DNA of 55,509 bases from positions 64,713-120,221 of the forward strand of contig PACG01000111.1 of NCBI GenBank assembly GCA_002699335.1. Direction: 5' to 3'. The notes under the pieces were generated by a model. The model was given only the letters and a program-made list of their open reading frames with translations. It was not told the origin of the DNA and did not search any database. Both the position numbers and the translations under genes were made by a program. This document shows, one piece after another, positions 9,458-32,981 of the stretch (positions are counted from its first letter, which is position 1; each line of letters starts with the position of its first letter). This DNA is from Candidatus Poribacteria bacterium (lineage in GTDB: Bacteria > Poribacteria > WGA-4E > UBA9662).

Positions 9458-10828
9458 ATGCAAAAGCAACTTGAAAACTGGGATAAATCCTTTTTATGGC
9501 ATCCTTTCACCCAGATGAAGGATTGGGAAAAGGAATCCATTTGTGTGATTGCGCGTGGTCAAGGTGTTTACTTGATCGATACTGACGGCAACCGTTATCT
9601 GGACGGCATCTCGTCTATGTGGACCAACGTTCACGGCCATAATCATCCTCGATTAAATGCTGCCTTGACCGCACAGATTGAAAAGATTTCACACTCGACC
9701 CTGCTTGGATTTTCCAATATACCCGCTATCCAATTGGCCAAAAGGCTGGTCGAGATAACCCCACCCGGACTAAACCGAACCTTCTTTTCCGACAATGGAT
9801 CAACGGCGGTGGAAATTGCGCTCAAAATTGCCCATCAGTATTGGCAACATTGTGGTCAAGAAAATCGATCAAAGTTCGTTCATCTGGATCAGGCTTACCA
9901 CGGGGACACACTCGGGGCAGTTAGTGTTGGTGGGATTGATCTCTTCCATCAGACATTTGCACCACTGACTTTCTCCTCGATCTCAACACCAACACCTAAC
10001 GCCTACAAAGGCCATTCAGCAGAGGAAGATCGAGATAGGTGCTTAGATCTACTCGATCAAATATTGACTCGTCATCAAGGCCAAATTTCAGGGATCATTG
10101 TAGAACCGTTAGTGCAAGGGGCTGGTGGAATGATTATTCATCCAGCAGGCTTTCTAAAAGGGGTTGAGCAACTTGCGCGAAAATACGATGTCCTATTGAT
10201 CGTGGATGAAGTGATGACCGGCTTAGGACGTACAGGCCAAATGTGGGCTTGTCAACAGGAACAGGTGGAACCCGATATACTCTGTTCGGCTAAAGGACTG
10301 ACCGCCGGTTATTTGCCCTTAGCGGCTACTTTAACCACAGAGAAGATTTACACCGCTTTTTTAGGCGAGTATGCAGAACTAAAAACCTTTTTCCACGGAC
10401 ACAGCTTTACTGGCAATCAACTTGGAGCTACTGTGGCACTGGCTAATTTGGAGCTTTTTGACTCTCCAGATTTTTTCTCACAACTCGAAAATAAAATTGC
10501 CTATTTTCAACAGCGACTGCAAGATTTCCATACCCTTGACTACGTCGGGAATCTTCGCTCTATCGGCCTAATTGGTGCTTTTGAGTTGATGTCAGACAAG
10601 CGCAAGCAAATCGAGTTTCCATTTGAGCAAAAGGCCGGCATTCGCGTTTGCCGATCAGCCCTCAAAAAAGGTGTCGTACTCCGTCCACTGGTCAATACAA
10701 TTGTGCTGATGCCCCCACTCTCGATCACTACATCTGAGATAGACTTACTGATAGATGGTGTCCGGTCAGCAGTAAATCAAACTGGTCGGGAACTGGTAGC
10801 GGAGACCCAATTGCTGCGCCATAATTAA
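9458..10828 (+). CDS. bioA: Adenosylmethionine-8-amino-7-oxononanoate aminotransferase (BioA)
   Basis: Class III PLP-dependent aminotransferase that converts 8-amino-7-oxononanoate to 7,8-diaminononanoate in biotin synthesis, with S-adenosylmethionine as amino donor. Signatures: WHPFTQMKDW at the N-terminus (BioA-typical), SDNGSTAVEIALKIAHQYW, VDEVMTGLGRTGQMWACQ (PLP-binding Asp) and SAKGLTAGYLPLAATL (PLP Lys). About 456 residues from ATG 9458, as usual for the family. An in-frame TTG at 9437 would add seven residues; the ATG is preferred because the family normally begins just before the WHPFTQM motif, though its Shine-Dalgarno is weak. No other biotin gene lies in the window. Confidence 0.93.
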   Translation: MQKQLENWDKSFLWHPFTQMKDWEKESICVIARGQGVYLIDTDGNRYLDGISSMWTNVHGHNHPRLNAALTAQIEKISHSTLLGFSNIPAIQLAKRLVEITPPGLNRTFFSDNGSTAVEIALKIAHQYWQHCGQENRSKFVHLDQAYHGDTLGAVSVGGIDLFHQTFAPLTFSSISTPTPNAYKGHSAEEDRDRCLDLLDQILTRHQGQISGIIVEPLVQGAGGMIIHPAGFLKGVEQLARKYDVLLIVDEVMTGLGRTGQMWACQQEQVEPDILCSAKGLTAGYLPLAATLTTEKIYTAFLGEYAELKTFFHGHSFTGNQLGATVALANLELFDSPDFFSQLENKIAYFQQRLQDFHTLDYVGNLRSIGLIGAFELMSDKRKQIEFPFEQKAGIRVCRSALKKGVVLRPLVNTIVLMPPLSITTSEIDLLIDGVRSAVNQTGRELVAETQLLRHN

Positions 10829-10862
10829 TCGAGGACTATAACAAGGGACTAAAATACGACCT

Positions 10863-12203
10863 CTAGTACGGTTTAGGTAGTAATCCGCCACGATTTCCGG
10901 CTTCGACAAATTGGTTGTAGACGTGAGGCCGTCGTTGCATCCAGTTGATACTACGATAACATCCTTTGCTAGCTGGTAGATGACCATCAACGGTTTGAAC
11001 AGTAGCGGAGATGAAAGCCTGATCTCCATTATTCCAAGCTAAGACTGTACCCAGTCGATCGATGATACAGCTGCCTTCGGCCCGGTTAACAGCCACTACC
11101 ACACAAAGTTGATTGTCCATAGCACGGGTTTTCATGATGCCACGGAATCGATCAGAATCAAATACGCGAACACCTGGATACCAGGCTCGGTGGTCGCCCA
11201 TAATTGGTAGGAGTAGAAAGTCGGCACCGTTCAGGCCAATCATGCGCGACGATTCGGTTGCCGAACTGTCCATACAAATATTGCAGCCTATCCGCCCGAG
11301 TTCCGTCTGAAACACAGGAAAAGTATTACCAGGTAAAATTCCACTCTCAATTTCACCGCCAACCGCCAGATGTACTTTGCGGTACCGACCTTCTATTTTT
11401 CCCGCCGGGTCGATTAAAACAGCACTATTGTGAACGGCATCACCATCACGTTCCAACAAACCGAGCAGGATGCGGGTCTGATATCGCTGGGCGATTTCGG
11501 CAAAGACCTCGGTTTCAGGACCTGGTGCTGGAACCGCCAGATCTATTGGACTCCCTTTTAATCCCCACTGCAAAGCGATCTCTGGTAACACGATTAAAGA
11601 GGGATTCTCCCGGCAAGCGGCCTCACACAACGGTGTATAGTAAGCAGCATTATCTTGGATCGTTTGATAGGGGCCCTGACGGTCGCTTCGTTTGCCTGTG
11701 ACGACAGCGATTTTGACGTTAGGAGGAATTTCTGCCACCTCACTTTCGTCTGAAACGGCTTCTATTTGTGGAAGACACCAGTTAGCGGATCCCGTTGGTG
11801 ACCAACGAAAAGTATAGCGGAGGGTGAGTGATGTGCCATCGGTTGGAGGTGTCAGACATCGTTGAAATTGCAAAGTCTGTGGGTCTACTACCTCCGGCAG
11901 TAGATAGTCCCAAGCCACGACATCGGGGTGTCCCGTATTAATCTCGTCTGGTGGGAAGTCTCCCCAATAGGCTGTACAGCGAAGCGTATCCCGCAAATTA
12001 TCGATTTGGTCAGCCTTAACCTCGGTAGTAATCCGGTAACTTTGGGCAGTAGAAGCACCAGAGAAGGTCAGTTGCCATCCTCCGATACAGGTTCGTGTAC
12101 CGTTGGCTTGAGTGGTCAGTACTTGGTCTTCTTGCCGCATGACCGGTGCTGCTGTTGAATGTGGTGACCATGGTTGTATCTGAGTCAGTGCGAGTTTTGT
12201 CAT
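10863..12203 (-). CDS. Carbon-nitrogen hydrolase (nitrilase superfamily) with N-terminal beta-sandwich
   Basis: 446 residues from ATG 12203, which has GGAG six bases upstream; a TTG four codons earlier is less likely. The C-terminal 280 residues hold the nitrilase fold with its Glu-Lys-Cys triad: E in SLIVLPEIALQWG, K in GRYRKVHLA and C in GCNICMDSS. The N-terminal 165 residues (TRTCIGGWQLTFSG, YRITTEVKAD, LRYTFRW) look like a jelly-roll/carbohydrate-binding-type domain seen in some nitrilases of uncultured marine bacteria. Likely an amidase acting on a C-N bond; substrate unknown. Convergent with bioA, with 34 bases between them. Confidence 0.85.
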   Translation of the reverse strand: MTKLALTQIQPWSPHSTAAPVMRQEDQVLTTQANGTRTCIGGWQLTFSGASTAQSYRITTEVKADQIDNLRDTLRCTAYWGDFPPDEINTGHPDVVAWDYLLPEVVDPQTLQFQRCLTPPTDGTSLTLRYTFRWSPTGSANWCLPQIEAVSDESEVAEIPPNVKIAVVTGKRSDRQGPYQTIQDNAAYYTPLCEAACRENPSLIVLPEIALQWGLKGSPIDLAVPAPGPETEVFAEIAQRYQTRILLGLLERDGDAVHNSAVLIDPAGKIEGRYRKVHLAVGGEIESGILPGNTFPVFQTELGRIGCNICMDSSATESSRMIGLNGADFLLLPIMGDHRAWYPGVRVFDSDRFRGIMKTRAMDNQLCVVVAVNRAEGSCIIDRLGTVLAWNNGDQAFISATVQTVDGHLPASKGCYRSINWMQRRPHVYNQFVEAGNRGGLLPKPY

Positions 12204-12355
12204 ATAGATCTCCAATTTGAGTTAAGAAAGCCATTGTAGTGTCAGTCATCTTTTTACCAAAACGCTCTGTTTAGAGTAGCACGATCTGCTTGCCCAAGCA
12301 ATAACCGGGTTGCAATCAAATCCAGTAAGTGCAGTGAAATCAGAACATTTTGGCA

Positions 12356-12385
12356 TTGACATCTTTGGAGAAGGTTTCTTATACT
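12356..12385 (+). promoter_or_regulatory. Sigma-70-type promoter of the ether-lipid operon
   Basis: TTGACA at 12356-12361 is a perfect -35 hexamer; TATACT at 12380-12385 is a good -10; the spacer is 18 bases. Transcription is expected to start about 12391-12393, giving a 65-base leader before the ATG at 12458. Confidence 0.7.
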
Positions 12386-12390
12386 AGCTT

Positions 12391-12404
12391 CTGAATATAT
12401 TCAG
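12391..12404. promoter_or_regulatory. 14-bp perfect palindrome at the predicted transcription start (candidate operator)
   Basis: CTGAATATATTCAG is its own reverse complement and begins five bases after the -10 hexamer, so it would cover +1. This is a classic position for a repressor dimer site. No cognate regulator is identified; the NtrC-like protein at 19726 is not expected to bind here as a sigma-54 activator. Confidence 0.55.
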
Positions 12405-12457
12405 ATCGTCGACTCATTGGCTTAGTACCCCTGCGAGTCAGTAACTCCCCCTAGTAA

Positions 12458-15400
12458 ATGCAAACAATCCGTCATACCTTTCGAGACAAAGTCATACTGA
12501 TTACAGGAGCAACCGGGTTTGTCGGTCAGCCGCTGGTGGCTAAGATATTAACTCATCTATCCAACATTAAAAAGATTTACCTCCTGATTCGAAGAAAAAC
12601 TGGTAGAAACGGTTCGACGATCTCAGCTCATGAGCGGTTAGAGTCGAAATTTTTCCCCTCTGATGTATTTAATCATCTGCGACAAGTCCACGGAGAGAAC
12701 TTTGATTCTTGGATTCGAGGTAAGGTCTTTGCAGTTGAAGGTGATCTCAATCAGGATCGATTGGGCCTTTCTGATAGTGATTATCAGCGTTTGACTGAAG
12801 AGGTACAGATCCTTATCAACAGTGCTGCCATTGTTGAGTTCGATTCACCGATTGATGATGCTGTACAGATGAACGTCATTTCGGCACAGCGGGGAGTCGA
12901 ATTAGCAAAAAGCTGTCCTAATGCGGTGTTTGTTCACATTTCAACGGCTTACTCCTGCGGTAGTACCCCCGGTAAAGTACCTGAAGAACTGCACCTCTCC
13001 TATGCTGATATTGCGAAACAGCTAAAGGCGGAAGGGAAAAATGCACCCGCGACAATCGGAGAAGAACTGGACCAGATGTTGTCTGCCGGGGCAGAGATTC
13101 GCAGTCGGACTGAATGGTCCAGTCCTGAACTCAAATCGGAACTGGTCGAATCAGGGCTCAATCACGCCAAGTCACGGGGTTGGAATGACATCTACACGTA
13201 TACCAAGTACCTGGGAGAGCAGATCGTTACCCAAACCTGTGATGGCTTGTCAGTTGCGATCGTTCGTCCCTCAATCATCGAGAGTAGCCTGAAAGAACCT
13301 GAACCCGGGTGGCTAGACGGATTGCGGATGGCAGACCCACTGATAATAGGCTACGGTAAAGGGCGGTTACTCGACTTCCCAGCCAAACGAGATATCCTCT
13401 TGGATGTGATTCCGGTGGATCTGGTAGTCAACGCAATTATTGCGGCGGCCTCCCAAGCAATAGCATCCCCTTCGGTTCAAGTGTACCATGTTTCTAGTGG
13501 AGCCACTAATCCGCTCTTTTTTCAGTTTCTTTATGATACCACTAAAGCCTATTTCCATCAGCATCCGATGGAGGACCGAGATGGCCAATCAATCGTCCCC
13601 CATGAATGGAAATTTAGAGATCTAGCTGCTTTTAACCGTTATTTCGCAAGTAAGCAAAACCAAATCGAATCCACCAAACGGTGGTTGAAGATGGCTCCGT
13701 TCAAATGGGCCAGCCGGAAAAGTCGGCAACTGTCGGTCGTTCAAAACTCCTTAGAACGGCTACTTTACTATGTCAAGATCTATGGAGCTTACGTTCGACT
13801 GAGCTACGAATTTGAAACGGGTAAGACTCAGGCGCTTCATCAATCTCTAACAGCAGAAGAGCAGCAACTATTCAATTTTGATGCTTCCAATTTCGATTGG
13901 AAGCACTATTTACAACAAGTTCACATTCCAGGTATTAAGCGTTTTGTGTTGCGGATGGAAGGCAGTTCTCAAATAGAGAAACAAACAGTTGAGACTGGTC
14001 CCCCGATCAAGGGCAAAGGTAAACGTAAAAAGGCGATTCCAGAGTCGTTCCAAACTATTCCAGATCTACTCTCTTACCAAACACAAAAGGCTCCCAATCA
14101 TGTTGCGTTACAGATCAAGCGGAACGATAAATGGATCCGCTATACCTATCAGCAGTTTGACCAACTCTCTAAAAAAATCGCCCAACAACTTTGGAACAGT
14201 GGCTACCGTCATGGTGACCGTATCTTACTTTGGGCTGATAACCAACCTGAATGGGGTATCGCTTACTTTGCTTGTGCTCGAATCGGCGTGATCGTAGTAC
14301 CGGTTGACCGCCAAACCCCAGTCACTGAAGCCTATGCTTTGGCGAAATTTACGGACGCTAAAGCCATCTTTACCACCTCGGATATAGCGGATGGCCTCAA
14401 CGAAATCGAAAGTAAAGCTATAGAGTACAGCCAACATAACAATAGTTTAGTGGAAATGCTCGAGATCGAAGTCCGTGATATTGGATCTGAATGCCGGTTA
14501 GTCGGTACTGAAGAGGATACTGCTTCGCCAGCAAGGTCACCTGAGTCAGCGGCCATTCCTCCAGCCGAGATTAAGCCAGAGACAATAGCCTCGATTATCT
14601 TTACCTCTGGTACCGCTTACGATCCGAAAGGCGTTATGCTATCACACCGAAACTTTATCGCCAATGTGCTATCGGTAGCCGAAGCCTTACCTCCCCAACC
14701 CGGAGAACGGTTCCTCTCGGTTTTACCGCTTTATCATGCTTTGGAGTTTACCTGTGGTTTCCTGATGTCGATCTATAGCGGTTCAACGGTGACTTACCTC
14801 AACTCTATGCGACCAAATGCGATTTTGGACACCATGCGAGAAACAGAGACAACGGTTATGATTGGTGTTCCCCGCTTGTTCAAGCTGATTTACGACAGTT
14901 TGATGCGCTACGTAGTGAAGGTCCGACCTGATGTGTCACAGAATCAACTGACAACGGACCAAATTGAACAGATCCACCAAGCATTGGGAGGAAAACTGCG
15001 GATCTTGGTTAGTGGAGGATCAGCACTTCCAGATACGGTTTACGACAATTATCTTCAACTCGGTATCACTCTCTACCAAGGCTACGGGTTGACCGAGACA
15101 GCTCCTGTCGTTAGTGTCAACCCTTACCAAAAGAGCAGAAGATCTTCTGTTGGGACAGCTTTGAACGATGTCCAGATTGAGATTGATCAACTAAACGCTG
15201 ATGGAATTGGTGAGGTGATAATTCGATCACCTAGCCTAATGTCTGGATACTTCAATAATCCCAAAGCCACTGAGAAAGTTTTGCTATCCGATACACTCTA
15301 TAGCGGGGATCTGGGCTACTTCGATAGTGATGGTTATCTATACCTGACAGGGCGCAGTAAAGATGTTATTGTTTCTGGAGCCGGTAAGAACATCTATCCA

Positions 15401-16885
15401 GGGGAACTAGAAGTTTTGTACGGTGACCACAATAACATCCAAGAGATTTGTATCATCGGCCAGTCAACTGACGACGAGATTGGCGAAGAGGTTCACGCCG
15501 TAGTTTTACCGACAAGTCTAGATGCTGAACCCAAAATTAGACAGCACATACGGTCTCGTGCCAACGCTCTCCCTTCCTACCAACGGGTTCATAAAATACA
15601 TACTTGGCCGATCACCACATTGCATACAGAGTATAACAATCATTCGGCGGAGGAGTTGCCGAAAACCGAAGCGGGGCAAATTGATCGAGAGTTGGTTAAA
15701 TTAGTTTTGGCGTCACAACTCACCGATCAGGCCAACCCCCGATTTCCCGGATCAAGGGCTGTTCACTACCAAGTTGCAGACAAGCCGAATCGAGAATACT
15801 ACCCTTCGGTCGAGGCTCCTCAGTTGGGTCAAGATGTAGTAGATTTGGCGCAGTTGTCAGAGCCAGAACGTTTATCGCCTCCCACTGTCTCTGTAGATCC
15901 AGGTGTTCCACAAACGCAAGTTGATCGAATTGTGGCTGAACTGGCCAGGATCGCTCGCCTCCCGGTCAATCAGATTCAGCCATCAACAGATCTAGATGCA
16001 GATCTGGGATTGGACTCCTTAATGAAGATTGAGCTATTGCTGTTGCTGGAAGGTGAATTGGGTCAGCCATTACCAGATGAGTTGGTTGTTGGAATTAAGA
16101 CCGTAGACGACATTATTCGAGTAACAGAAACGGTTAAACAGTTAAATTCGGAAACAGAAAGTCCTTCCTCTACTCAGCAGTTGGGCGATCAAGCTCCAAC
16201 TGAGTTTTCTTTTGAGGCCGAAATGCCAGAAACGGTGGATCTCTCGATTGCCAAAATCTTTCGCTTTGGGATGCGTGTGGTTTACGACCAAGTTTTTTCT
16301 ATTCAGTGCCGTGGATTGGAAAATATCCCCAAGGGGGAAAAATACATCATCGCGGCTAACCATTCAAGCCACCTGGACACAGGGGCGATTATGACTGTTT
16401 TGGAGAAAGAATCACAACGGCTTAAAGTTCTCGGCGCTCGAGACTACTTCTTTACCAATCCTTTTAAGTCTTGGTTCTTTGGCCAGTTAATGAACGTACT
16501 TCCACTGGATCGGACGGAGAATTTCTTGCAGGGTGTCCGGACTGCGCAGGAAGCACTCGATCAGGGCTATGCTTTGCTAATCTATCCTGAGGGGACACGT
16601 TCTATGACCGGCGAACTTCAGGAGTTTCGAGCTGGTTTAGGGCTGCTAGCCTGTGAAGCAAAGGCGCCTATTATCCCAGCCTGCATTAAAGGCACCTATC
16701 AAGCATTGCCAAAGGGACAAAATTTTCCTCATCCGAATCAGATTCAGGTGACCTTTGGAAATCAGGTGCAACCGATAATAAACACCAGTAGTAGTGCACA
16801 CGAGCAGTATAAGGAAATTGCCAATCATGTTCGGGCGGCAATTGTTAAATTGCAAGAAGTAGATGATAAACTAAGATCCGACTGA
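12458..16885 (+). CDS. Four-domain enzyme: fatty acyl reductase - AMP ligase - acyl carrier protein - PlsC acyltransferase (ether-lipid synthesis, ElbD-like)
   Basis: 1475 residues. Residues about 10-480: fatty acyl-CoA/ACP reductase of the FAR type, with GATGFVGQPL for NADPH and YTYTKYLGE holding the YxxxK pair. About 530-1100: AMP-dependent acyl ligase with FTSGTAYDPKGVMLSH, YQGYGLTETAP and SGDLGYFDSDGYLYLTGR; the usual A10 lysine is Gln (KTEAGQIDRE). About 1140-1215: acyl carrier protein, with LGLDSLMKIE carrying the phosphopantetheine Ser at about 1187. About 1270-1460: PlsC-type acyltransferase with NHSSHLD and YPEGTRS. In eukaryotes FAR1 makes the fatty alcohol and GNPAT acylates dihydroxyacetone phosphate; both jobs are united here with acyl activation and a carrier. 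The layout recalls ElbD of Myxococcus ether-lipid synthesis (from memory). The genes that follow complete the pathway. No good Shine-Dalgarno precedes the ATG, so the start is less certain. Confidence 0.87.
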   Translation: MQTIRHTFRDKVILITGATGFVGQPLVAKILTHLSNIKKIYLLIRRKTGRNGSTISAHERLESKFFPSDVFNHLRQVHGENFDSWIRGKVFAVEGDLNQDRLGLSDSDYQRLTEEVQILINSAAIVEFDSPIDDAVQMNVISAQRGVELAKSCPNAVFVHISTAYSCGSTPGKVPEELHLSYADIAKQLKAEGKNAPATIGEELDQMLSAGAEIRSRTEWSSPELKSELVESGLNHAKSRGWNDIYTYTKYLGEQIVTQTCDGLSVAIVRPSIIESSLKEPEPGWLDGLRMADPLIIGYGKGRLLDFPAKRDILLDVIPVDLVVNAIIAAASQAIASPSVQVYHVSSGATNPLFFQFLYDTTKAYFHQHPMEDRDGQSIVPHEWKFRDLAAFNRYFASKQNQIESTKRWLKMAPFKWASRKSRQLSVVQNSLERLLYYVKIYGAYVRLSYEFETGKTQALHQSLTAEEQQLFNFDASNFDWKHYLQQVHIPGIKRFVLRMEGSSQIEKQTVETGPPIKGKGKRKKAIPESFQTIPDLLSYQTQKAPNHVALQIKRNDKWIRYTYQQFDQLSKKIAQQLWNSGYRHGDRILLWADNQPEWGIAYFACARIGVIVVPVDRQTPVTEAYALAKFTDAKAIFTTSDIADGLNEIESKAIEYSQHNNSLVEMLEIEVRDIGSECRLVGTEEDTASPARSPESAAIPPAEIKPETIASIIFTSGTAYDPKGVMLSHRNFIANVLSVAEALPPQPGERFLSVLPLYHALEFTCGFLMSIYSGSTVTYLNSMRPNAILDTMRETETTVMIGVPRLFKLIYDSLMRYVVKVRPDVSQNQLTTDQIEQIHQALGGKLRILVSGGSALPDTVYDNYLQLGITLYQGYGLTETAPVVSVNPYQKSRRSSVGTALNDVQIEIDQLNADGIGEVIIRSPSLMSGYFNNPKATEKVLLSDTLYSGDLGYFDSDGYLYLTGRSKDVIVSGAGKNIYPGELEVLYGDHNNIQEICIIGQSTDDEIGEEVHAVVLPTSLDAEPKIRQHIRSRANALPSYQRVHKIHTWPITTLHTEYNNHSAEELPKTEAGQIDRELVKLVLASQLTDQANPRFPGSRAVHYQVADKPNREYYPSVEAPQLGQDVVDLAQLSEPERLSPPTVSVDPGVPQTQVDRIVAELARIARLPVNQIQPSTDLDADLGLDSLMKIELLLLLEGELGQPLPDELVVGIKTVDDIIRVTETVKQLNSETESPSSTQQLGDQAPTEFSFEAEMPETVDLSIAKIFRFGMRVVYDQVFSIQCRGLENIPKGEKYIIAANHSSHLDTGAIMTVLEKESQRLKVLGARDYFFTNPFKSWFFGQLMNVLPLDRTENFLQGVRTAQEALDQGYALLIYPEGTRSMTGELQEFRAGLGLLACEAKAPIIPACIKGTYQALPKGQNFPHPNQIQVTFGNQVQPIINTSSSAHEQYKEIANHVRAAIVKLQEVDDKLRSD

Positions 16886-16890
16886 AGATG

Positions 16891-16918
16891 GTAGAGACGT
16901 CGCACGCAACGCCTCTAC
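16891..16918. repeat. REP-like palindromic hairpin
   Basis: GTAGAGACGT at 16891-16900 pairs with ACGCCTCTAC at 16909-16918 over ten positions with one A-C mismatch, leaving an 8-base loop. Its form resembles the short GTAGAGACGT...ACGTCTCTAC palindromes dispersed in many bacterial genomes. It lies in the 67-base gap inside the ether-lipid operon, where it could also act as an intercistronic hairpin. Only one copy was noticed in the window. Confidence 0.5.
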
Positions 16919-16952
16919 TTCTCAATTCTTAATCGTCATGCAAGGATGAGAT

Positions 16953-18707
16953 ATGGCTGAACAGAAATTCTTCGCTACGAAAGATGAGACTTGGGGGCAC
17001 AGATGGGGCTTTCAGGACTCACAATTCATTTTGCATCCGGACCGAACCATCACCCTTTCGGGAAATCGGTACGAACTCTGTGGCGTAGTTATGCCCGATT
17101 TTATTCCTTACGTAGAAGAATCACTACAAATCAGATTAGACCCAGACGACATTCTACCCGAAATTGAACGAAAGCCAGTCCAACCGCCTAGATCCAACCC
17201 CGCTTTCATCGACGCTGTCGTAGCCACTTTCCCCGAAGATCGTTACACGCTTGATGATACTGAACGACTGCTTCATAGTCACGGGCAAACCACCTCTGAG
17301 GAGGTTTATAAAATCCTCTATAATCGAGTCGACAAAACTACTGACATGGTGTTTTACGTCGAATCGGAAGAGGAGGTAACAGAACTAATTCGATTGGCAG
17401 AGGAATACGATGTTTGCCTGATTCCTTTTGGTGGTGGAACCAGCGTTAGTAGTGCTTTAAAATTGCCTGATTTAGAAACAAGAATGATTGTGGCTGTGGA
17501 TATCCGCCGCATGAATAAGATCGAGTGGATCAATGTGGATGACCGTCGAGCCTGCATTCAAGCTGGAATCACCGGCAAGCAGATGGAAGAAGAATTAGCC
17601 CAACATGGTTATATGGTTGGCCATGAGCCTGACAGCGTTGAGTTTTCGACCCTGGGGGGTTGGATTGCTACCCAAGCTAGCGGCATGAAGAAAAATCGAT
17701 ATGGAAATATCGAGGATATCATCGAAAATATAACAGTGATCACACCTCGAGGTATATTAGAACAGACAGAACCAACAACCAGGGTTTCGATGGGCATGCG
17801 ACCTCAAAATCTGCTGTTTGGTAGCGAAGGCAATCTGGGGATTATCACTAAAGCCGTGGTTAGGATTCACCAATTACCGGAGGTGCAGGAATACGCTTCA
17901 GCAGTCTTTCCAACCTGGGATCGAGGGGTTGACTTTCTCCATGATCTTTCTCGAACCAACTATGTACCGGCCAGTGTCCGTCTGGTAGACAATATCCAAT
18001 TCCGCTTCGGGCAGGCATTGAAACCACATCCTGAAGGCCTGAAAAAGGTCATGGCCAGCCTTCAGAAATTTGTCGTTTTGAACTTGAAAGGGTTAGATCC
18101 GTATAAAATGTGTGCGGCCACTTTTGTTATGGAAGGTGAAGCCCGGGAGGTAGCTTACCAAAAACAGAACCTATTGCAATTGGCCAAACAGCATCAAGGT
18201 ATCGCGGCCGGTCCCGAAAACGGCAAGAGGGGCTACATGCTGACCTTTGCCATCGCCTATATCCGTGATTTCTTATCCAATTACCACATTATTGGCGAAA
18301 CGATGGAGACTTCAGTTCCATGGAGCAAAATCTCCGAAGTTTGCCAGGTTGCGACTGATAAGCTGCTTGAGTTGCACGATAAGCACAATATTCCTGGTAG
18401 ACCTTACCTCTCTTGTCGTATTCCTCAGATCTATCACACGGGCGTCTGTATCTACTTTATGTTTGGTATGTATATGAAAGGGATTGATCAACCAGAAGAT
18501 GTCTTTGGGGGTATTGAACATGCTATGCGTCAGGTAATCATGGATCATGGCGGATCGATTTCTCATCATCACGGTGTTGGCAAACTACGAAAAGACTTTT
18601 TACCCAAAATACATTCACCGGCTAGTATTGAATTGCTGAAAAAAGTTAAGGCTTTCCACGATCCAAATAACGTTTTCGGTGTCCGAAACAACGTTTTCGC
18701 TGAATGA
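16953..18707 (+). CDS. Alkyldihydroxyacetonephosphate synthase (FAD-dependent, AGPS-like)
   Basis: 584 residues. The family swaps the acyl chain of acyl-DHAP for a fatty alcohol, creating the ether bond. FAD-binding region about 125-310: PFGGGTSVSSAL, then GHEPDSVEFSTLGGW and SGMKKNRYGNIEDI, a stretch close to eukaryotic AGPS, and LLFGSEGNLGIITKAV. The C-terminal half keeps PASVRLVDN, FRFGQALKP, the Tyr-bearing VCIYFMFG and the HHHGVGKLR triple-His motif that is functionally important in mammalian AGPS. Length fits the core enzyme without a peroxisomal targeting extension. Ordinary FAD oxidases such as GlcD lack the SGMKKN motif, so AGPS is favoured. Shine-Dalgarno AAGGATGAG precedes the ATG. 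It sits 67 bases after the multidomain enzyme and overlaps the next gene. Confidence 0.88.
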   Translation: MAEQKFFATKDETWGHRWGFQDSQFILHPDRTITLSGNRYELCGVVMPDFIPYVEESLQIRLDPDDILPEIERKPVQPPRSNPAFIDAVVATFPEDRYTLDDTERLLHSHGQTTSEEVYKILYNRVDKTTDMVFYVESEEEVTELIRLAEEYDVCLIPFGGGTSVSSALKLPDLETRMIVAVDIRRMNKIEWINVDDRRACIQAGITGKQMEEELAQHGYMVGHEPDSVEFSTLGGWIATQASGMKKNRYGNIEDIIENITVITPRGILEQTEPTTRVSMGMRPQNLLFGSEGNLGIITKAVVRIHQLPEVQEYASAVFPTWDRGVDFLHDLSRTNYVPASVRLVDNIQFRFGQALKPHPEGLKKVMASLQKFVVLNLKGLDPYKMCAATFVMEGEAREVAYQKQNLLQLAKQHQGIAAGPENGKRGYMLTFAIAYIRDFLSNYHIIGETMETSVPWSKISEVCQVATDKLLELHDKHNIPGRPYLSCRIPQIYHTGVCIYFMFGMYMKGIDQPEDVFGGIEHAMRQVIMDHGGSISHHHGVGKLRKDFLPKIHSPASIELLKKVKAFHDPNNVFGVRNNVFAE

Positions 18708-19521
18708 GATACTGACTGTGGACCTAAAGCAGAAAACAATTATCATTACAGGAGCCTCGTCGGGTATTGGTGCAACCTTAGCCCAAAAAGCTGGGCAGCG
18801 GGGAGCGAAAGTGGTTCTGGCTGCTAGAACTGAATCTAAGTTGGATGTACTGGCAAAAACGATGTCAGATTCAGGTAGTAAAGCTCTGGCTGTCGTCACC
18901 GATATTACAGATCCATCCCAATGTCGTGACCTAGTACGGCAAACAGTTGAAACTTTTGGTGGTGTAGACATCTTAATTCTGAATGCAGGGGTCAGTATGT
19001 GGGCTGCGTTTGAGGAGATTGAGGACGTCTCTTTTTTTAAAGACCTAATGGATGTTAATTATATGGGAGCAGTATACTGCGTGCAATCTGCACTCCCTCA
19101 CTTGAAAAAAAATCGAGGGTTGATTGCTCAGATGTCAACTGCTCAAGCTTTAATGGGTTTCCCTCATCATGCTGGTTATGCCGCATCAAAACATGCTTTG
19201 CAAGGATTTCTAACTTCACTGGAAATTGAGATGCAGGAGTCTGTACGATTCTTACACATCTATCTGGGCTGGATTCGAGATACAAATTTGCGGCGAAACG
19301 CTTTTAGTCTACAAGGCCAGCCAATGGGAGAACAAAAGCGGTCGCATAACAGTGAGTCTATCGGTTTGGAGGTGTGTACAGACGCCATTTTAGAGGCAAT
19401 TGCGGTCGGCAAAAGGAAAATTTACTTGCCAGCTAAATTGGGTTTTATTCCTTTCTTAAACGCTGTTTATCCCAGTTTCCTACAACGAAGAGTTTCTAAA
19501 GCGGTGCAAACTCAAACATAG
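18679..19521 (+). CDS. Short-chain dehydrogenase, candidate acyl/alkyl-DHAP reductase
   Basis: 280 residues. Classical SDR: GASSGIGATLAQKAG for the cofactor, NAGVSMWA, catalytic Ser in QMSTAQALMG, and GYAASKHAL with Tyr and Lys. The C-terminal LGFIPFLNAVYPSFLQRRV is hydrophobic, as in membrane-associated DHRS7-type reductases. Mammalian DHRS7B (PexRAP) reduces alkyl-DHAP to alkyl-glycerol-3-phosphate, the step after AGPS. The GTG start lies inside the AGPS gene (29-base overlap), implying translational coupling and shared function; GTG 18718 is a possible later start. Function is inferred from context, since SDR substrate cannot be read from sequence. Confidence 0.75.
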   Translation: MSETTFSLNEILTVDLKQKTIIITGASSGIGATLAQKAGQRGAKVVLAARTESKLDVLAKTMSDSGSKALAVVTDITDPSQCRDLVRQTVETFGGVDILILNAGVSMWAAFEEIEDVSFFKDLMDVNYMGAVYCVQSALPHLKKNRGLIAQMSTAQALMGFPHHAGYAASKHALQGFLTSLEIEMQESVRFLHIYLGWIRDTNLRRNAFSLQGQPMGEQKRSHNSESIGLEVCTDAILEAIAVGKRKIYLPAKLGFIPFLNAVYPSFLQRRVSKAVQTQT

Positions 19522-19551
19522 CAGTGTTGGATTAGCCTGGATTTGTACTAG

Positions 19552-19650
19552 CAGAAGCAATACCTAGAGAACGACTACAATTCCACCAAAGAACGTCTTC
19601 AGTTGATACTAAAAAAACTGGATGATAAGACTGCCGCTTCGCCGGTTTAA
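19552..19650 (+). pseudogene. Remnant of a small coiled-coil protein
   Basis: A 33-codon stretch (QKQYLENDYNSTKERLQLIL, then KKLDDK) ends at TAA 19648-19650 and is preceded in frame by stops at 19549-19551 and further upstream. The heptad-like, charged composition and the ending (ERLQLILKKLD) recall the C-termini of small ZapB-like coiled-coil proteins. It has no start codon or ribosome site, so it is probably a dead fragment. Confidence 0.3.
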
Positions 19651-19725
19651 ATACCTGTGATCAAGTGAATTTATGTCTGTCAACTCGCTGAACTAAAGGA
19701 TCACTAAACCAAAGAATAAGCCAGA

Positions 19726-21288
19726 ATGACTGCACCAACCAAAGTTCTGATTATTGAAGACGAAGTCGCTTTTTGGAGTCATTACCAACGTAAGCTCTCA
19801 CCACTAGGCTTAACTTTCGAAACGGCGGCTTCCCCAATGGAGGCCGCTGAAAAACTAACGATATTTGTTCCCGACATTGTATTGTTGGATCTTTCCTTTG
19901 AAGTTCCCAAAGGCCACAATTCAATGCAGGAAACAGAACAAGCAACCAAGGCCGAACATGCATCCATCGTTAACGTCCCTTCGAGTCCTATTCACGACAC
20001 GACGCTTGTTTGGGAGAACGGGGCATCTGCTTCAGAGGGGCTTACTTTTCTGTCTTATATTCGACGCCAATGTCCGGGGTCCAAAGTGATCGTAGTCACC
20101 GGAAATAGCGAGGTGGAGAATGCACTCGAAGCGGTTAGGCGGGGAGCTGCGGATTTCATCGAAAAAGGAAGCGGTTTCTTGGATGCCCTGCTGTTTCGAG
20201 TTCAAGCCATCAATGAGCGGTTACAACTGGAGAAACAACTTCGTCATCAGCAAGACTATGCCATTGACCGAATTGGCGGTTATCCTTATGGAACAGGGCA
20301 AATTATCGTTGGCACGTCAGAAGCGATGCACCGAGTTTTCCACCAGATCGACCGTTTAGCCAAGATCGAAGAAACGATTTTAGTTAGTGGTGCGACCGGT
20401 ACTGGCAAAGAGCTAGTTGCCCAGGCGATCCATTATCATAGTCATCGCTCAACTCAACCGTTCTTGCCGCTCAATTGCGCGGCCTTTCCCGAGGACTTAA
20501 TTGAAGATGAGCTTTTCGGTCATAAACGAGGTGCTTTTAGCGGAGCGACTAGCGATCGTTTGGGTGCTTTTGAAGCTGCTGATGGAGGGACGATTTTCCT
20601 GGATGAGATAGGTGAAATGCCGTTGACGATGCAACCCCGTTTATTACGAGTGTTGCAAGAAAAACAGGTCAAACGAATTGGTGAAAATCAAGAAAGGCCG
20701 ATCAATGTAAGGATTGTTGCTGCAACTAATCGAGATCTCAAACAATCGGTTTCTGGCGGCAATTTTCGGCAAGATTTATACTACCGCTTGAGTTCCCTAC
20801 CAATTGAACTTCCACCTTTGCGAGAGCGCGAAGGTGATATCCGGCTGCTGGTTCAACATTTCACCAACATCTTCTGCCAGCAATACCAGATCGACCGATA
20901 TTTCACGGCAGAAGCGATGAGTTACTTAACCTCTCAGGTTTGGGATGGCAATGTGCGAGAGTTGAGAGACTCTATCCAACGGAGTATTCTTTTTTCCAAT
21001 AGTGAACCAATTTCCATCGGGGATATAGAGCCAGAATCATCAATGGCTGGTAAGAGACGGAATATAGATAATACTACCTCTGGTTCAGGTAAGAGCTCAT
21101 CTCAGATTAAGGGGGATCTAAGTGAACTGAATGACCTCTTGCAGATTAAGTCTTATGCTGAAGCTCGGCGTGCGTTTGAAGATTGGTACGTTAGGAAGGT
21201 CTACGAGTCCACTGACGGGAATCAATCCCAGACGGCTCGCTTACTTGATATCGATCGCAATACAGTTCGACGGATTTTAAGTCGTTAG
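19726..21288 (+). CDS. NtrC-family sigma-54-dependent response regulator with altered receiver domain
   Basis: 520 residues: receiver (1-150), AAA+ domain (about 195-435) and Fis-type helix-turn-helix (about 490-520, SQTARLLDIDRNTVRRIL). The receiver keeps the acidic pair (EDE), phospho-acceptor Asp55 (IVLLDLSF), Thr125 (VVTGNSEVENAL) and Lys147, but has about 45 extra residues (about 60-104) after Asp55. The AAA+ part has Walker A GATGTGKE, Walker B GGTIFLDEIGEM, the arginine-finger region and GAFSGA where the sigma-54-contacting loop normally reads GAFTGA; Thr-to-Ser is mild. No histidine kinase lies beside it. It follows the ether-lipid genes by about 200 bases and may regulate them, but no -24/-12 promoter was seen there. 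Confidence 0.88.
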   Translation: MTAPTKVLIIEDEVAFWSHYQRKLSPLGLTFETAASPMEAAEKLTIFVPDIVLLDLSFEVPKGHNSMQETEQATKAEHASIVNVPSSPIHDTTLVWENGASASEGLTFLSYIRRQCPGSKVIVVTGNSEVENALEAVRRGAADFIEKGSGFLDALLFRVQAINERLQLEKQLRHQQDYAIDRIGGYPYGTGQIIVGTSEAMHRVFHQIDRLAKIEETILVSGATGTGKELVAQAIHYHSHRSTQPFLPLNCAAFPEDLIEDELFGHKRGAFSGATSDRLGAFEAADGGTIFLDEIGEMPLTMQPRLLRVLQEKQVKRIGENQERPINVRIVAATNRDLKQSVSGGNFRQDLYYRLSSLPIELPPLREREGDIRLLVQHFTNIFCQQYQIDRYFTAEAMSYLTSQVWDGNVRELRDSIQRSILFSNSEPISIGDIEPESSMAGKRRNIDNTTSGSGKSSSQIKGDLSELNDLLQIKSYAEARRAFEDWYVRKVYESTDGNQSQTARLLDIDRNTVRRILSR

Positions 21289-21317
21289 CTAGCAATCGGC
21301 AACGGGGTTCTGCCAGA

Positions 21318-22565
21318 TTAGAAGTATTCGCTGAACCATTCTTTCATCCGTTGGGTAATTTGTCCAAACAGGTTATCTCCTGGTTTCATGAACTGTCGGC
21401 CGCTTTCTGTTGACTGACGAACCACGGATCCGTACATCACCAACCCAACACCAGTGGCGTAGATTGGACTATTGACACGGTCGCTCAGACCTTTTAGCGG
21501 CCTTGGGTAGCCAATTCGGACAGGATATGGCAATCGGTCCTGTACCAATTCCAGTAAACCGCTAACTAAGGAGGTCCCACCCGTTAAAACCAACCCGGCC
21601 GGGGTTGAAGTCCCATAAGATGCAATTTCGTTGTGAATAAGGTCAATTGTCTCTTCCATGCGACATTGGATAATCTCCGCTAAATGTTGCCGCGGAATTA
21701 GACGGGGGCGTTGAAATCCTCCCACTGTTGGTGGTTGGATTTTTTCATGCGCCTCGATCAGTTCGACCAGCGCACACCCACGACGATGTTTCAGAATCTC
21801 AGCATCGTATGGCGTCATCTTTAACAATTGGGCGATGTCGTTAGTGACATGATCCCCACCAACTGCAATAACCTTGGTATGACGGAGGGCGTCATCTTTG
21901 TAGATCACAATGTCGGTGGTGCCACCACCCATGTCAGCTAGTGTTACACCCACCGCTCGTTCATCCGATGTCAAAATTGAGTCGGCTGAAGCAATCGGCT
22001 CCAAGACAATATCTTCTACCGATAGACCTGCATTATTAATACTCTTAAGCAGATTTTGTACTGATGCCACTGCTCCTGTAATAATATGGACATAAGCTTC
22101 GAGCCGAATACCTGACATGCCAACGGGATGTTTAATCCCATCTTGATCATCCACGACAAAGTCTTGTGAAATCACATGTAGCACCTCTCGATCAACAGGG
22201 GTTGCGGTAGCTTTTGCAGTGTTAATAGCACGGTCAACATCAGTTTGTATAATCTGATGGCCTTCTCCAGACACCGCTACTACTCCATGCGATGTCTGCC
22301 CCAGAATGTGTCCACCGGCAATACCAGCATAAACCGATCCAACCTGAACACCGGCCATCATTTCGGCCACCTTAACGGACTCCCGGATCGAGGCAGTTGT
22401 CTTTTCAATGTCTACTACTACCCCTTTCCGGAGGCCTTCGGATGGGGCTGTACCAACACCGACAATCTCGATTTTCTCTGGATCTGATTGCCACGTATTC
22501 CCAATGATCGTGGCAATTTTACTCGTACCGATATCTAAACCAACAACGATATCACCGCTGGCCAT
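21318..22565 (-). CDS. ftsA: Cell division protein FtsA
   Basis: 415 residues, actin-like ATPase that tethers FtsZ to the membrane. N-terminal phosphate-1 motif VGLDIGTSKIATIIG, SHUT region ALSDERA-like IEDIVLEPIASADSILTSDERAVG written in parts: VLEPIASAD and VTLADMGGGTTDI (phosphate 2), and LVLTGGTSLVSGL (adenosine motif). The end, FGQITQRMKEWFSEYF, is the amphipathic membrane-targeting helix typical of FtsA. AAGGAAA lies just before the ATG; the gene overlaps ftsQ by 14 bases. It is the last gene of the division cluster: the next gene is convergent and is not ftsZ. Confidence 0.95.
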   Translation of the reverse strand: MASGDIVVGLDIGTSKIATIIGNTWQSDPEKIEIVGVGTAPSEGLRKGVVVDIEKTTASIRESVKVAEMMAGVQVGSVYAGIAGGHILGQTSHGVVAVSGEGHQIIQTDVDRAINTAKATATPVDREVLHVISQDFVVDDQDGIKHPVGMSGIRLEAYVHIITGAVASVQNLLKSINNAGLSVEDIVLEPIASADSILTSDERAVGVTLADMGGGTTDIVIYKDDALRHTKVIAVGGDHVTNDIAQLLKMTPYDAEILKHRRGCALVELIEAHEKIQPPTVGGFQRPRLIPRQHLAEIIQCRMEETIDLIHNEIASYGTSTPAGLVLTGGTSLVSGLLELVQDRLPYPVRIGYPRPLKGLSDRVNSPIYATGVGLVMYGSVVRQSTESGRQFMKPGDNLFGQITQRMKEWFSEYF

Positions 22566-29208: not shown

Positions 29209-29832
29209 TTAGCCAATTTGTTCCGAGCAAACCTGTGAGGTCATCCCACCGTCTGAATCTTTGTCCAGGTTTGACTGGCCAAAGTCAACCTTTCCCGATT
29301 CGTAGGAAGCTTCGACCACGGACCGTACAATTTGGATGGTCAATCGGCCTACATCGCGGACGAAGTCCTGGTGAACGTTGTTCGCAGGTGATAGCTGTCG
29401 ATAAGGGCCTTTTCGAGAAGGCTGACTTGTAGCTAAGAGTTGCTGGCTAGCGACCTGAAGGGCAGTTGTAACCAGTTCAGATGGCACTGAAATTGGAGCC
29501 GCTGTCTCTTGTGACCCATCATCTATCTTTGCTGCAGGAAAGGATTGATCTGTATCCGAGGGGAAATCTTCACCGCTCAGAAAGGCATTTTGCTTGGATT
29601 CGATTTCGGCCATCAGTAGTTTTGCTGCTTCCTGCTCAGCCTGCTTTTTCGTGCCAGCAAGGGCGTATGGAGTTTCAAAAGTCTGCTTGGCATATTTAAT
29701 CTGCACCATCCATTGAGTTTTTCCTTCAGCTGTTGCAATTTCTGCCTGGCTTGTTTCGTAAATCGGGGGGGAAGGATAGCGTCCTAAACAGTATTGTTGC
29801 AACAGCCCTTTGTAATTTATCTCTTCCGACAT
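29209..29832 (-). CDS. Stand-alone double-stranded-RNA-binding-domain protein
   Basis: 207 residues. The N-terminal 75 residues fit a dsRBD like that of RNase III: NYKGLLQQYCLGRYPSPPIY, then a central strand region (WMVQIKYAKQTFE) and the GTKKQAEQEAAKLLM helix carrying the Lys-Lys and Ala-Ala positions. The remainder is low-complexity and probably disordered. No RNase III catalytic domain is present. Bacterial proteins with only a dsRBD are uncommon. It sits between argC (24 bases) and murD (37 bases) and starts with a good GGAGAG site, so it is likely part of the argC-division transcript. Function unknown. Confidence 0.75.
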   Translation of the reverse strand: MSEEINYKGLLQQYCLGRYPSPPIYETSQAEIATAEGKTQWMVQIKYAKQTFETPYALAGTKKQAEQEAAKLLMAEIESKQNAFLSGEDFPSDTDQSFPAAKIDDGSQETAAPISVPSELVTTALQVASQQLLATSQPSRKGPYRQLSPANNVHQDFVRDVGRLTIQIVRSVVEASYESGKVDFGQSNLDKDSDGGMTSQVCSEQIG

Positions 29833-29856
29833 TCTCTCTCCTTTGAAAACTAACTA

Positions 29857-30900
29857 TTAAGGCATTAGGCCTGGTGACATCAGACCTGCCGTTTCTGTCA
29901 ATCCGTACATCAAGTTCAGGTTTTGTACCACTGCTCCAGCTGCACCCTTTACCAGATTGTCTATAGTGGACATTACGATCACCCGGTTAGTACGCGGGTC
30001 CACCTCTAAACCCACATGACAGAAATTGCTGCCCAGTACCGCTTTAGTTTGCGGGTACTCACCAATATCTAGAACTTGGACAAATGGCTCTTCAGCATAG
30101 GTACAGCAATAGTGATCGAGGATATCTGCTGTCGTGGTCGATACGGCAAGATTAGCGTAGGTAGTGGTCAGTATCCCACGTGTCATCGGAACGAGGTGAG
30201 GAGTGAAATTGACCATTACCGTTTCGCCTGCTATTGCACTCAGTTCTTGCTCAATTTCGGGTGTATGCCGATGTGTGACCAGGCCGTAGGCGGTAGAGTT
30301 AGATTCCCGGTTGGGATAGTGTGTTACCTCTTTGGCTTTGCTACCGGCGCCAGAAATTCCTGACTTAGAGTCGATGATGATGCTTTTGTTGTCGATCAAA
30401 TGCGTTTTGACCAGCGGGGCAAGTGCTAAAATGGAACCGGTCGGATAACAACCGGGATTAGCGACCAATTGCGCAGACGGGATCCGGTCCCTATACTGCT
30501 CTGGTATCCCGTAGACAGCCTTAGTCATTCGTTCAGCGTCTGTGTGCTCAACTTGATACCACTCTTCATACACTTCAGCCTCATTCAGGCGGTAGTCAGC
30601 ACTGAAGTCAACCACCCTTAGATCTTGATCTAGGATTCTCGGCACAAAGTCCATAGCAACCTTATGCGGCACGGCCAGTACTACTACATTTACTCGATCT
30701 TTAAGCTTTTCGATTTCGAGTTTCTCAAAGTAGAGATCCACAAGGCCTCGCAAATTGGGCAGGACCCGGTCGACTCTTTGCCCCGTATAAGTTTCGGAGG
30801 TGACTAACGTCAGTTCGAAGCCTGCCGGATGTTGTATCAATAGTCGCATCAGTTCACTGCTGGTATAACCCGATGCCCCGACAATTCCTACTCCAACCAT
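29857..30900 (-). CDS. argC: N-acetyl-gamma-glutamyl-phosphate reductase (ArgC)
   Basis: 347 residues; third step of arginine synthesis. GIVGASGYTSSELMRLLIQHP at the NADP site (split by family usage), catalytic Cys in VANPGCYPTGSILAL, KSGISGAGSKA, and NSTAYGLVTHRHTPEIEQEL with the catalytic His. Full length, Shine-Dalgarno AGGA just before the ATG. Divergent from murB and first gene of the minus-strand cluster; no other arg gene is in the window. Confidence 0.95.
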   Translation of the reverse strand: MVGVGIVGASGYTSSELMRLLIQHPAGFELTLVTSETYTGQRVDRVLPNLRGLVDLYFEKLEIEKLKDRVNVVVLAVPHKVAMDFVPRILDQDLRVVDFSADYRLNEAEVYEEWYQVEHTDAERMTKAVYGIPEQYRDRIPSAQLVANPGCYPTGSILALAPLVKTHLIDNKSIIIDSKSGISGAGSKAKEVTHYPNRESNSTAYGLVTHRHTPEIEQELSAIAGETVMVNFTPHLVPMTRGILTTTYANLAVSTTTADILDHYCCTYAEEPFVQVLDIGEYPQTKAVLGSNFCHVGLEVDPRTNRVIVMSTIDNLVKGAAGAVVQNLNLMYGLTETAGLMSPGLMP

Positions 30901-30934
30901 CTATTTTTCCTGTTAATCTACGCGGTTAGCGACC

Positions 30935-30964
30935 TTGCATCTCGTCATGCCAATTTGCTATGAT
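30935..30964 (+). promoter_or_regulatory. Promoter of murB
   Basis: TTGCAT (30935-30940), an 18-base spacer and TATGAT (30959-30964), with TG one base before the -10 (extended -10). Start of transcription is expected near 30971. This places the upstream ATG at 30960 inside the -10 and rules it out as the murB start. Confidence 0.6.
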
Positions 30965-31007
30965 TGTGGCAATAATAGCACATTCCTTTCGAATGATACA
31001 AAGGATA

Positions 31008-31937
31008 ATGCCCGTTGCTGAACAACTGACAACTTGGAAAATAGAGCTGGCTCGACTCTGCCAACCATACACTAACTCGAAAGTTTGTTTTGATATACCA
31101 CTCAGTAAACAAACCTATTTCGGTATCGGCGGTCGAGCCTCAGCTTATCTGGAAGTTGGGGAGATAGATTTGCTAGTAGCAGTTGCCCGATTCAAGAATG
31201 ACTATCGGTTAGACACCTTTATTCTAGGGCGTGGATCGAACCTCTTAGTTAGCGATGATGGATTCGATGGTCTGGTGATTCGCTTGGTTGGCCAACTGGA
31301 TTGGCTAACCTTTGAAGGCACCTCAGTTCGTGCTGGTGCAGGAGTTTCCCAACCCAAGCTGTCCAAAGCGGCTGCCCGTCAAGGATTGAGCGGGGTTGAG
31401 TTTGTGCTTGGTATTCCCGGCTCAGTTGGTGGTGGATTAATGATGAATGCCGGGGCTTGGGGGAGTTGCTTCAGCGATTTGGTGACTCAGATTCGTGTGG
31501 TGACAGAGTTGGGTGAGATCACCGAAATTAGTGCCGATCAAGCTAAATTTCAGTATCGCCAAAGTTGTTTGAACGACTACTTTTGTATCATTGAGGCGGA
31601 AATGCGGCTGACGGAATCTGAGATAAATGTAGTCACTCAACAAATGCAGCAGTTATACCAGCAGAAGATGGAAACCCAACCCTTCGTGGTGGGAAGTGCT
31701 GGCTGTATGTTCAAAAATCCAGAAGGTCGCTCAGCCGGGCGATCGATAGATCTATGTGGTCTCAAAGGAACGCGCATCGGTGATGCCGAGGTTTCTCAGA
31801 TCCACGGAAACTTTATTGTTAATCATGGAAATGCGAGTGCCAAAGACGTTTTAGACTTAGTGGAATTGATCCAACTCGAGGTTAAAAAACAACAGGGTAT
31901 TGATCTTCATCTCGAAGTGAAGCTACTCGGTTTTTAG
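31008..31937 (+). CDS. murB: UDP-N-acetylenolpyruvoylglucosamine reductase (MurB)
   Basis: About 309 residues from ATG 31008 (AAAGGA close in front, spacing short); ATG 30993 is possible, ATG 30960 lies within the promoter. FAD-dependent reduction of UDP-GlcNAc-enolpyruvate. Motifs: TYFGIGGRASAYLEV, ILGRGSNLLVSDDGFDG, GVEFVLGIPGSVGGGLMMNA, SAGCMFKNPEGRSAG and IHGNFIVNHG. The SAGCMFKNP motif has Cys where E. coli has its catalytic Ser, a change also common in type II MurB. Usually murB lies between murC and ftsQ; here it is divergent upstream of argC. Confidence 0.94.
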   Translation: MPVAEQLTTWKIELARLCQPYTNSKVCFDIPLSKQTYFGIGGRASAYLEVGEIDLLVAVARFKNDYRLDTFILGRGSNLLVSDDGFDGLVIRLVGQLDWLTFEGTSVRAGAGVSQPKLSKAAARQGLSGVEFVLGIPGSVGGGLMMNAGAWGSCFSDLVTQIRVVTELGEITEISADQAKFQYRQSCLNDYFCIIEAEMRLTESEINVVTQQMQQLYQQKMETQPFVVGSAGCMFKNPEGRSAGRSIDLCGLKGTRIGDAEVSQIHGNFIVNHGNASAKDVLDLVELIQLEVKKQQGIDLHLEVKLLGF

Positions 31938-31960
31938 AAATTAGGATTTTTAGGAGTCAA

Positions 31961-32950: not shown

Positions 32951-32951
32951 C

Positions 32952-32980: not shown

Positions 32981-32981
32981 A

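Follow-up and report, generated by a model that had tools for sequence, protein, structure and literature searches.

An ElbD-type fusion gene joined to AGPS and a short-chain dehydrogenase/reductase gene in pelagic Candidatus Poribacteria: a probable ether-lipid operon

We analyzed 55,509 nucleotides (hereafter, the window) of contig PACG01000111.1 (assembly GCA_002699335.1, positions 64,713 to 120,221), which belongs to a pelagic Candidatus Poribacteria. Three consecutive genes, for an ElbD-type fusion protein, AGPS, and a short-chain dehydrogenase/reductase (SDR), probably constitute an operon for making 1-O-alkyl-glycerol-3-phosphate, an ether phospholipid precursor. What is new is the arrangement, with AGPS-SDR behind elbD in the position held by a HAD phosphatase gene in other Poribacteria. 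ElbD in Poribacteria was already known, and so was a compact AGPS operon, because the Myxococcus xanthus AGPS gene MXAN_1676 adjoins a gene for a fusion of fatty acyl reductase (FAR) and GNPAT (PMC9131029).

The three open reading frames (ORFs) listed by the initial annotation, which had been made from the letters alone, stand as it described them (12458-16885, 16953-18707, and 18679-19521), and the position at which it began, 12356, is the first base of a promoter-like site. The same three-gene operon, by its sequence under purifying selection, is found in Candidatus Poribacteria Arabian9_MAG_50 (genome G040, locus L027), the closest of 80 AGPS loci kept from a scan of GTDB species genomes (AGPS 96% and ElbD 92% identical). 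The features of the operon are as follows.

12356..12385, + strand: sigma-70-like promoter, TTGACA-18-TATACT (11/12 consensus positions; conserved in G040)
12458..16885, + strand: ElbD-type fusion gene, 1475 aa (Pfam; 92% identical protein in G040)
12500..13438, + strand: FAR NAD-binding domain (PF07993), TGATGFVG and YTYTK (Pfam; solved relative 7eoz)
13751..13954, + strand: FAR C-terminal 'Sterile' domain (PF03015) (Pfam)
14078..15253, + strand: AMP-binding acyl ligase domain (PF00501) (Pfam; signature stretches)
15923..16120, + strand: acyl carrier domain (PF00550), LGLDSL attachment serine (Pfam; signature stretches)
16301..16690, + strand: PlsC-type acyltransferase domain (PF01553), NHSSHLD and YPEGTRS (Pfam; solved relative 5kym)
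16953..18707, + strand: AGPS gene, 584 aa (similarity to solved AGPS; active-site residues kept; dN/dS)
18679..19521, + strand: SDR gene, 280 aa, start 18679 or 18718 (Pfam/NF004825); candidate 1-acyl/alkyl-dihydroxyacetone phosphate (DHAP) reductase

The three genes and their products

The elbD start codon lies about 70 bp downstream of the promoter-like site at 12356, which ranks first among 17 such sites in 10800-21400 (shuffled sequence would give 14.2). A spacer of 67 bp, in which no terminator-like site was seen, separates elbD from AGPS, and an AAGGA stretch stands just 5' of the AGPS ATG. The SDR gene starts at GTG 18679, overlapping AGPS by 29 bp, and GTG 18718, 10 bp past the end of AGPS, could plausibly serve as an alternative start. 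In comparison with G040 the dN/dS values were 0.32 (elbD), 0.14 (AGPS), and 0.25 (SDR), indicating that all three are real genes under constraint.

The domain order in the 1475-aa protein is FAR, acyl ligase, acyl carrier protein (ACP), and PlsC-type acyltransferase. Both this content and the fusion had been claimed by the initial annotation, and the Pfam profile search assigned the domains to the families it named (NAD_binding_4 6e-66, Sterile/FAR_C 1e-12, AMP-binding 2e-75, PP-binding 2e-10, Acyltransferase 4e-25). The best solved relative of the FAR part is the fatty acyl-CoA reductase 7eoz (252 bits, residues 11-502), and that of the acyltransferase domain is PlsC 5kym (70 bits). Nine signature stretches, which we take to reflect the family consensus (ligase, ACP, and acyltransferase included) and which were placed by the letters of the window, are broadly conserved across 24 ElbD proteins, one row that is cut by a contig end lacking the first. 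Full-length homologues and the tree agree on orthology to other poribacterial ElbD. The combination of FAR, ACS, ACP, and acyltransferase in one protein is the architecture described for ElbD (PMC9131029, PMC9426513). We also observed that the A3 motif (ElbD residues 716-725, window 14603-14632) reads TSGT in 7/7 rows of the AGPS-bearing clade, P0122 and P0123 among them, whose ElbD partner gene is not established, and TMGT or TAGT in 12/12 HAD-partnered poribacterial rows.

The 584-aa protein matches the guinea-pig AGPS (4bby) over nearly the full length (491 bits, 6e-146, residues 16-579), with 226/552 aligned residues identical, and the Dictyostelium enzyme (2uuu) with 297 bits, while the best non-AGPS enzyme was a D-lactate dehydrogenase at 80 bits (1e-21). 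Guinea-pig H300, D303, R419, R515, Y578, and H615-617, whose active-site roles we presume, are all kept, and the conserved residues of the window protein include R343, R438, Y501, and HHH 538-540. In a 95-row tree the protein was placed among AGPS, far from three short GlcD-like outgroup rows, which fill 41-46% of the columns (92 other rows). On this sequence evidence the second gene encodes a true AGPS and not a GlcD-type oxidase; neither of the two outcomes that the initial annotation had named as refuting its reading, a placement of this protein in the GlcD/vanillyl-oxidase branch and an assignment of the PlsC and FAR domains to unrelated families, was seen.

The third protein was matched by adh_short (Pfam, 2e-47) and by NF004825 (258.6 bits, cut-off 215), a model that names no function. 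Such an SDR gene lies directly 3' of AGPS in 50/80 loci, including 31/31 from Fidelibacterota, 5/5 from Latescibacterota, and 1/18 from Chloroflexota, and the SDR tree groups match the AGPS tree groups in outline. Family and context together suggest an acyl/alkyl-DHAP reductase, and most likely the SDR reduces alkyl-DHAP. A less probable reading, still to be reckoned with, is that it reduces another ketone (e.g., 3-ketosphinganine or a ketoacyl group) and that a general enzyme handles the DHAP ketone, given that the SDR family is promiscuous, the NF004825 model is silent on function, and the Chloroflexota loci mostly do without the gene. The constant position of the SDR directly behind AGPS in Fidelibacterota and Latescibacterota, and the parallel outline of the trees, argue for the alkyl-DHAP role.

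Related activities beside AGPS in other phyla

The same activities recur beside AGPS in other phyla, unfused or otherwise fused. A PlsC-type gene upstream and an SDR gene downstream of AGPS were detected in 31/31 Fidelibacterota (Marinimicrobia) loci, and across all 80 loci an SDR was found in 50, an acyltransferase in 40, and both in 37. The order FAR, acyltransferase-fold protein, AGPS, and SDR was seen in 11/20 sampled Latescibacterota loci, one of the 11 with a distant SDR (28%). In Planktothrix (locus L033, 4231-14113), genes for a ligase-ACP-reductase, PlsC, AGPS, an SDR, and two phospholipid head-group-type (CDP-alcohol-type) proteins follow one another, and in Dulcicalothrix (L032, 3608-12469) the AGPS cluster contains a HAD-family gene and a ligase-ACP-acyltransferase fusion, equivalent to ElbD lacking the FAR part.

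The Latescibacterota protein between FAR and AGPS has 650-685 aa (L083:7851-9872, L069:7841-9799, L072:6039-8096). It had no Pfam match above the cut-off, carries an HQSxxD/EH motif, and, in a model of medium confidence, folds like PlsC/GPAT, so that it is likely a divergent DHAP/glycerophosphate acyltransferase, as far as the model can be relied on.

AGPS-SDR in the place of a HAD gene

We surveyed 84 Poribacteria genomes for ElbD (E <= 1e-150), AGPS (E <= 1e-80), and HAD (E <= 1e-80). ElbD was present in 68/84 and AGPS in 3/84 (G040, G041, and G073). AGPS directly follows ElbD in G040 alone; in G041 and G073, AGPS and SDR are on another contig. The usual companion of poribacterial elbD is a 226-aa HAD protein (PF12710), found in all 65 AGPS-less ElbD genomes and located downstream of elbD, on the same strand and no more than 3 kb from the matched segment, in 64 of them (separate contigs in G064). 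The 68 ElbD genomes are accordingly split into 65 with HAD and three with AGPS, none having both and none neither. G040, G041, and G073 have only a HAD paralogue of 30-31% identity (E about 1e-25), a kind present as a second copy in other Poribacteria genomes, and no HAD gene was found beside elbD in the window (ORF list, Pfam). AGPS-SDR stands where other Poribacteria have an ElbB-type HAD phosphatase gene.

The HAD superfamily includes M. xanthus ElbB (PMC9131029). The initial annotation had spoken of 'ElbB-type' homologues of AGPS, which has to be corrected: ElbB is a HAD-type phosphohydrolase, and in M. xanthus AGPS is encoded by MXAN_1676, which lies in a different operon beside the FAR-GNPAT fusion (PMC9131029). 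Among the 16 genomes without ElbD at the threshold, two (G074 and G075) have a close HAD and six (G055-G060) one of 42-45%, so the link between HAD and ElbD has exceptions.

We tentatively consider, as a possibility somewhat on the doubtful side, that AGPS-SDR and the ElbB-type HAD are interchangeable finishing modules for ElbD and that HAD was lost where AGPS arrived. If true, the pairing of ElbD with HAD in 65 Poribacteria (and, extending the argument, in myxobacteria) would be a separate, AGPS-independent route to an ether or related lipid; the HAD would perform a step of the ElbD-HAD chemistry, and ElbD's own job would be the supply of activated acyl, alcohol, and acylated backbone.

Phylogeny and origin

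In the RpoB tree (24 genomes, two of them outgroups; five rows partial), G040, G041, and G073 form one clade (99/98), and the ElbD tree, with the window and P0121-P0123 included, agrees (99/96). The AGPS of the window and G040 fall within the Marinimicrobia (Fidelibacterota) set (100/100), and those of G041 and G073 within the Latescibacterota set (100/98), among whose members is one bin bearing the label Gammaproteobacteria. A single poribacterial AGPS clade was rejected (approximately unbiased test, p 5.5e-6; the constraint costs 332 log units). The window SDR is within the Marinimicrobia set as well (32 rows, 100).

These phylogenies suggest that elbD is native to Poribacteria and that AGPS-SDR entered as a pair of Marinimicrobia type, the direction of transfer being suggested by how few Poribacteria have AGPS. 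We infer that HAD was lost in the pelagic clade and that AGPS-SDR arrived twice separately, once behind elbD. The pair in the window is without the Marinimicrobia acyltransferase gene, which makes the acyltransferase domain of ElbD a candidate for the acyltransferase step.

In G105, G126, G128, G129, and G131 (RpoB loci L168-L172, L176, and L177; open frames of 1756-1772 aa), 1.0-1.25 kb of in-frame sequence interrupts the match to the RpoB domain, as an intein or a sizeable insert specific to the lineage would. AGPS hardly differs between an 'Anaerolineae' bin and a Neomarinimicrobiota bin (L037, L039), so misbinning of one or the other is probable.

The proposed pathway and its alternatives

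In the proposed pathway, the ligase domain of ElbD would activate a fatty acid and load it onto CoA or its own ACP. The FAR domain would reduce one activated chain to a fatty alcohol, and the acyltransferase domain would put another chain on DHAP, giving acyl-DHAP. AGPS would then exchange the acyl chain for the alcohol, yielding alkyl-DHAP and a free fatty acid, which the ligase domain might re-activate, and the SDR would reduce the ketone of alkyl-DHAP. The substrates, the order of steps, and the product are all deduced from gene and domain content. The parallel with the eukaryotic peroxisomal pathway drawn by the initial annotation is borne out by that content, and its pathway reading is well supported. 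It had also equated the PlsC domain with acyl-DHAP synthase and the SDR with ketone reduction; these assignments come from context, and the families do not prove substrates. Overall, its interpretation is partly supported.

Most likely ElbD makes both AGPS substrates. AGPS-SDR arrived behind a protein with acyltransferase, reductase, ligase, and carrier domains and without an acyltransferase gene of its own, which fits ElbD feeding AGPS. It is unlikely that ElbD instead acts apart from AGPS, making an aldehyde- or acyl-carrier-derived product, and that AGPS-SDR merely sits behind its promoter and is fed by other enzymes. AGPS is absent, at the threshold used, from 65/68 poribacterial ElbD genomes, which points to an AGPS-independent job for ElbD there, and the M. 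xanthus data suggest that ElbD is mostly apart from AGPS in that species (PMC9131029). In the window, however, the terminator-less 67-bp spacer and the shared conserved promoter join the two genes, the 31 Fidelibacterota AGPS-SDR pairs are all accompanied by an acyltransferase gene that is missing here, and the same activities are grouped beside AGPS in other phyla.

Several further points weigh against a supply of AGPS by ElbD and reduction by the SDR. The acyltransferase domain resembles PlsC and not specifically GNPAT, the SDR family is broad, and the best solved relatives of the SDR are functionally unrelated. The downstream SDR is lacking in 30/80 AGPS loci, 17 of them from Chloroflexota (four of the 30 end within 700 bp). 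ElbD occurs without AGPS in the 65 Poribacteria genomes, the exchange of HAD for AGPS is known from one clade, and HAD and AGPS stand side by side in L180 and L032, from two other phyla. A search for a CarF-type desaturase (PF10520) gave no match in G040, and none in the control genomes either. For M. xanthus, PMC9131029 describes that neither fatty alcohol nor acyltransferase activity was detected with ElbD, that elbD mutants lost an aldehyde, and that disruption of the AGPS gene lowered ether lipids only slightly; Pontiella has ElbD homologues, yet no ether lipids were found in it (PMC11868695).

The alkyl-glycerol-3-phosphate product is also preferred over plasmalogen-type (vinyl ether) lipids as the end product of the operon. 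The latter is rather improbable: the known aerobic bacterial system ends in plasmalogen via CarF (PMC9131029), but there is no desaturase gene within the operon.

That a Marinimicrobia contig end was joined to a poribacterial one by assembly or binning is hardly credible, for all that AGPS-SDR is Marinimicrobia-like, ElbD is poribacterial, and binning errors seem to occur, since the same junction is present in the separate assembly G040, which is collinear with window 12272-37951 at 92% DNA identity (two further pieces reach 42431), the GroEL encoded on this contig shares 87% of 277 residues (up to a contig edge) with that of Poribacteria SP142 (G041), and no AGPS named as Marinimicrobia is more than 67% identical to the one in the window. 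The Gfo/Idh protein beside GroEL is 64% identical to that of G041, with the same gene order, and a protein database search returned copies of AGPS and ElbD that were 99% (P0001) and 97% (P0121) identical. More distant relatives are P0002 and P0003 for AGPS (79%) and P0122 and P0123 for ElbD (61-64%). Genome G001 includes a 9,830-base contig that matches window 29536-39366 over its whole length at 99% identity; this contig is probably misbinned, and the genus of G001 shows no AGPS.

Comparison with known systems

The fusion protein shares the FAR, ACS, ACP, and acyltransferase set with ElbD of the M. xanthus elb operon (elbA-E), a likeness by described domain set and not by sequence alignment, and mutants there tie ElbD to ether lipids (PMC9131029). 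In that operon elbD is accompanied by elbB (HAD), elbC, and elbE and not by AGPS, whereas here AGPS-SDR replaces HAD. The cluster MXAN_1676-1675-1674 likewise has AGPS beside a FAR1-like and GNPAT-like protein and an NAD-dependent epimerase/dehydratase gene, but the fusion there is FAR and GNPAT without ligase and ACP, the gene order is different, and the third gene is of epimerase/dehydratase type instead of a classical SDR (PMC9131029). Sponge Poribacteria and Acidobacteriota ElbD have the same four domains (PMC9426513), and the poribacterial ones are orthologous to the window protein; the difference is their companion, HAD phosphatase with AGPS absent in 65 poribacterial genomes. As in the cyanobacterial clusters L033 and L032, acyl ligase, ACP, reductase, PlsC, and AGPS adjoin (with an SDR in L033), but in those the domain order differs, PlsC is separate, and L033 has an acyl-CoA dehydrogenase domain. 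The four activities of the peroxisomal pathway (FAR1, GNPAT, AGPS, and acyl/alkyl-DHAP reductase) are all predicted here and the AGPS homology spans almost the whole protein, although FAR and acyltransferase are fused with ligase and ACP and the acyltransferase is nearer PlsC.

The initial annotation knew of no description of such a system in this kind of organism, which was too broad. A poribacterial elbD homologue was already identified by Lorenzen et al. 2014, according to PMC9426513. That paper itself reports elbD clusters from sponge Poribacteria and Acidobacteriota, in which hydrolase/dehydratase, oxidoreductase, and fatty acid genes neighbor elbD. In the Black Sea, ElbD and AGPS homologues were counted over many phyla, AGPS in 49/134 Marinisomatota and 67/92 Latescibacterota bins (PMC11868695). 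We found no description of ElbD joined to AGPS in the literature searched (subscription papers were outside the search), nor, in full texts, a paper with the phrase 'acyl-dihydroxyacetone phosphate reductase' together with bacteria and ether lipid.

According to PMC9131029, it is not known by which steps aerobic myxobacteria convert a fatty acid into an alkyl ether lipid. The joining of ElbD to AGPS and a reductase shows what its assay-resistant reductase and acyltransferase domains most likely supply, and the operon is a compact three-gene set suited to testing. The exchange of HAD for AGPS offers a handle on the role of ElbB, and the SDR that recurs beside AGPS is a candidate bacterial alkyl-DHAP reductase.

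Neighboring genes and other observations

The operon is flanked by two further genes.

10863-12215, divergent: carbon-nitrogen-hydrolase gene, upstream of the operon
19726-21288: sigma-54-activator-type regulator gene, beginning 204 bp downstream of the operon; likewise downstream in G040

The receiver domain of the regulator was matched in two pieces, and the protein carries GAFSGA where GAFTGA is presumably the usual form. Collinearity with the G040 contig ends at window 12272, just upstream of the elbD promoter, and the 12 kb to the left had no match on that contig. PlsY (PF02660) was found in 0/6 Poribacteria genomes (G040, G041, G073, G066, G070, and G126) vs 8/14 control genomes. The GC content is low (0.39) at window 42-44 kb, and formylglycine-generating-enzyme-like and sulfatase-like frames at window 47757-50732 appear fragmented by eye.

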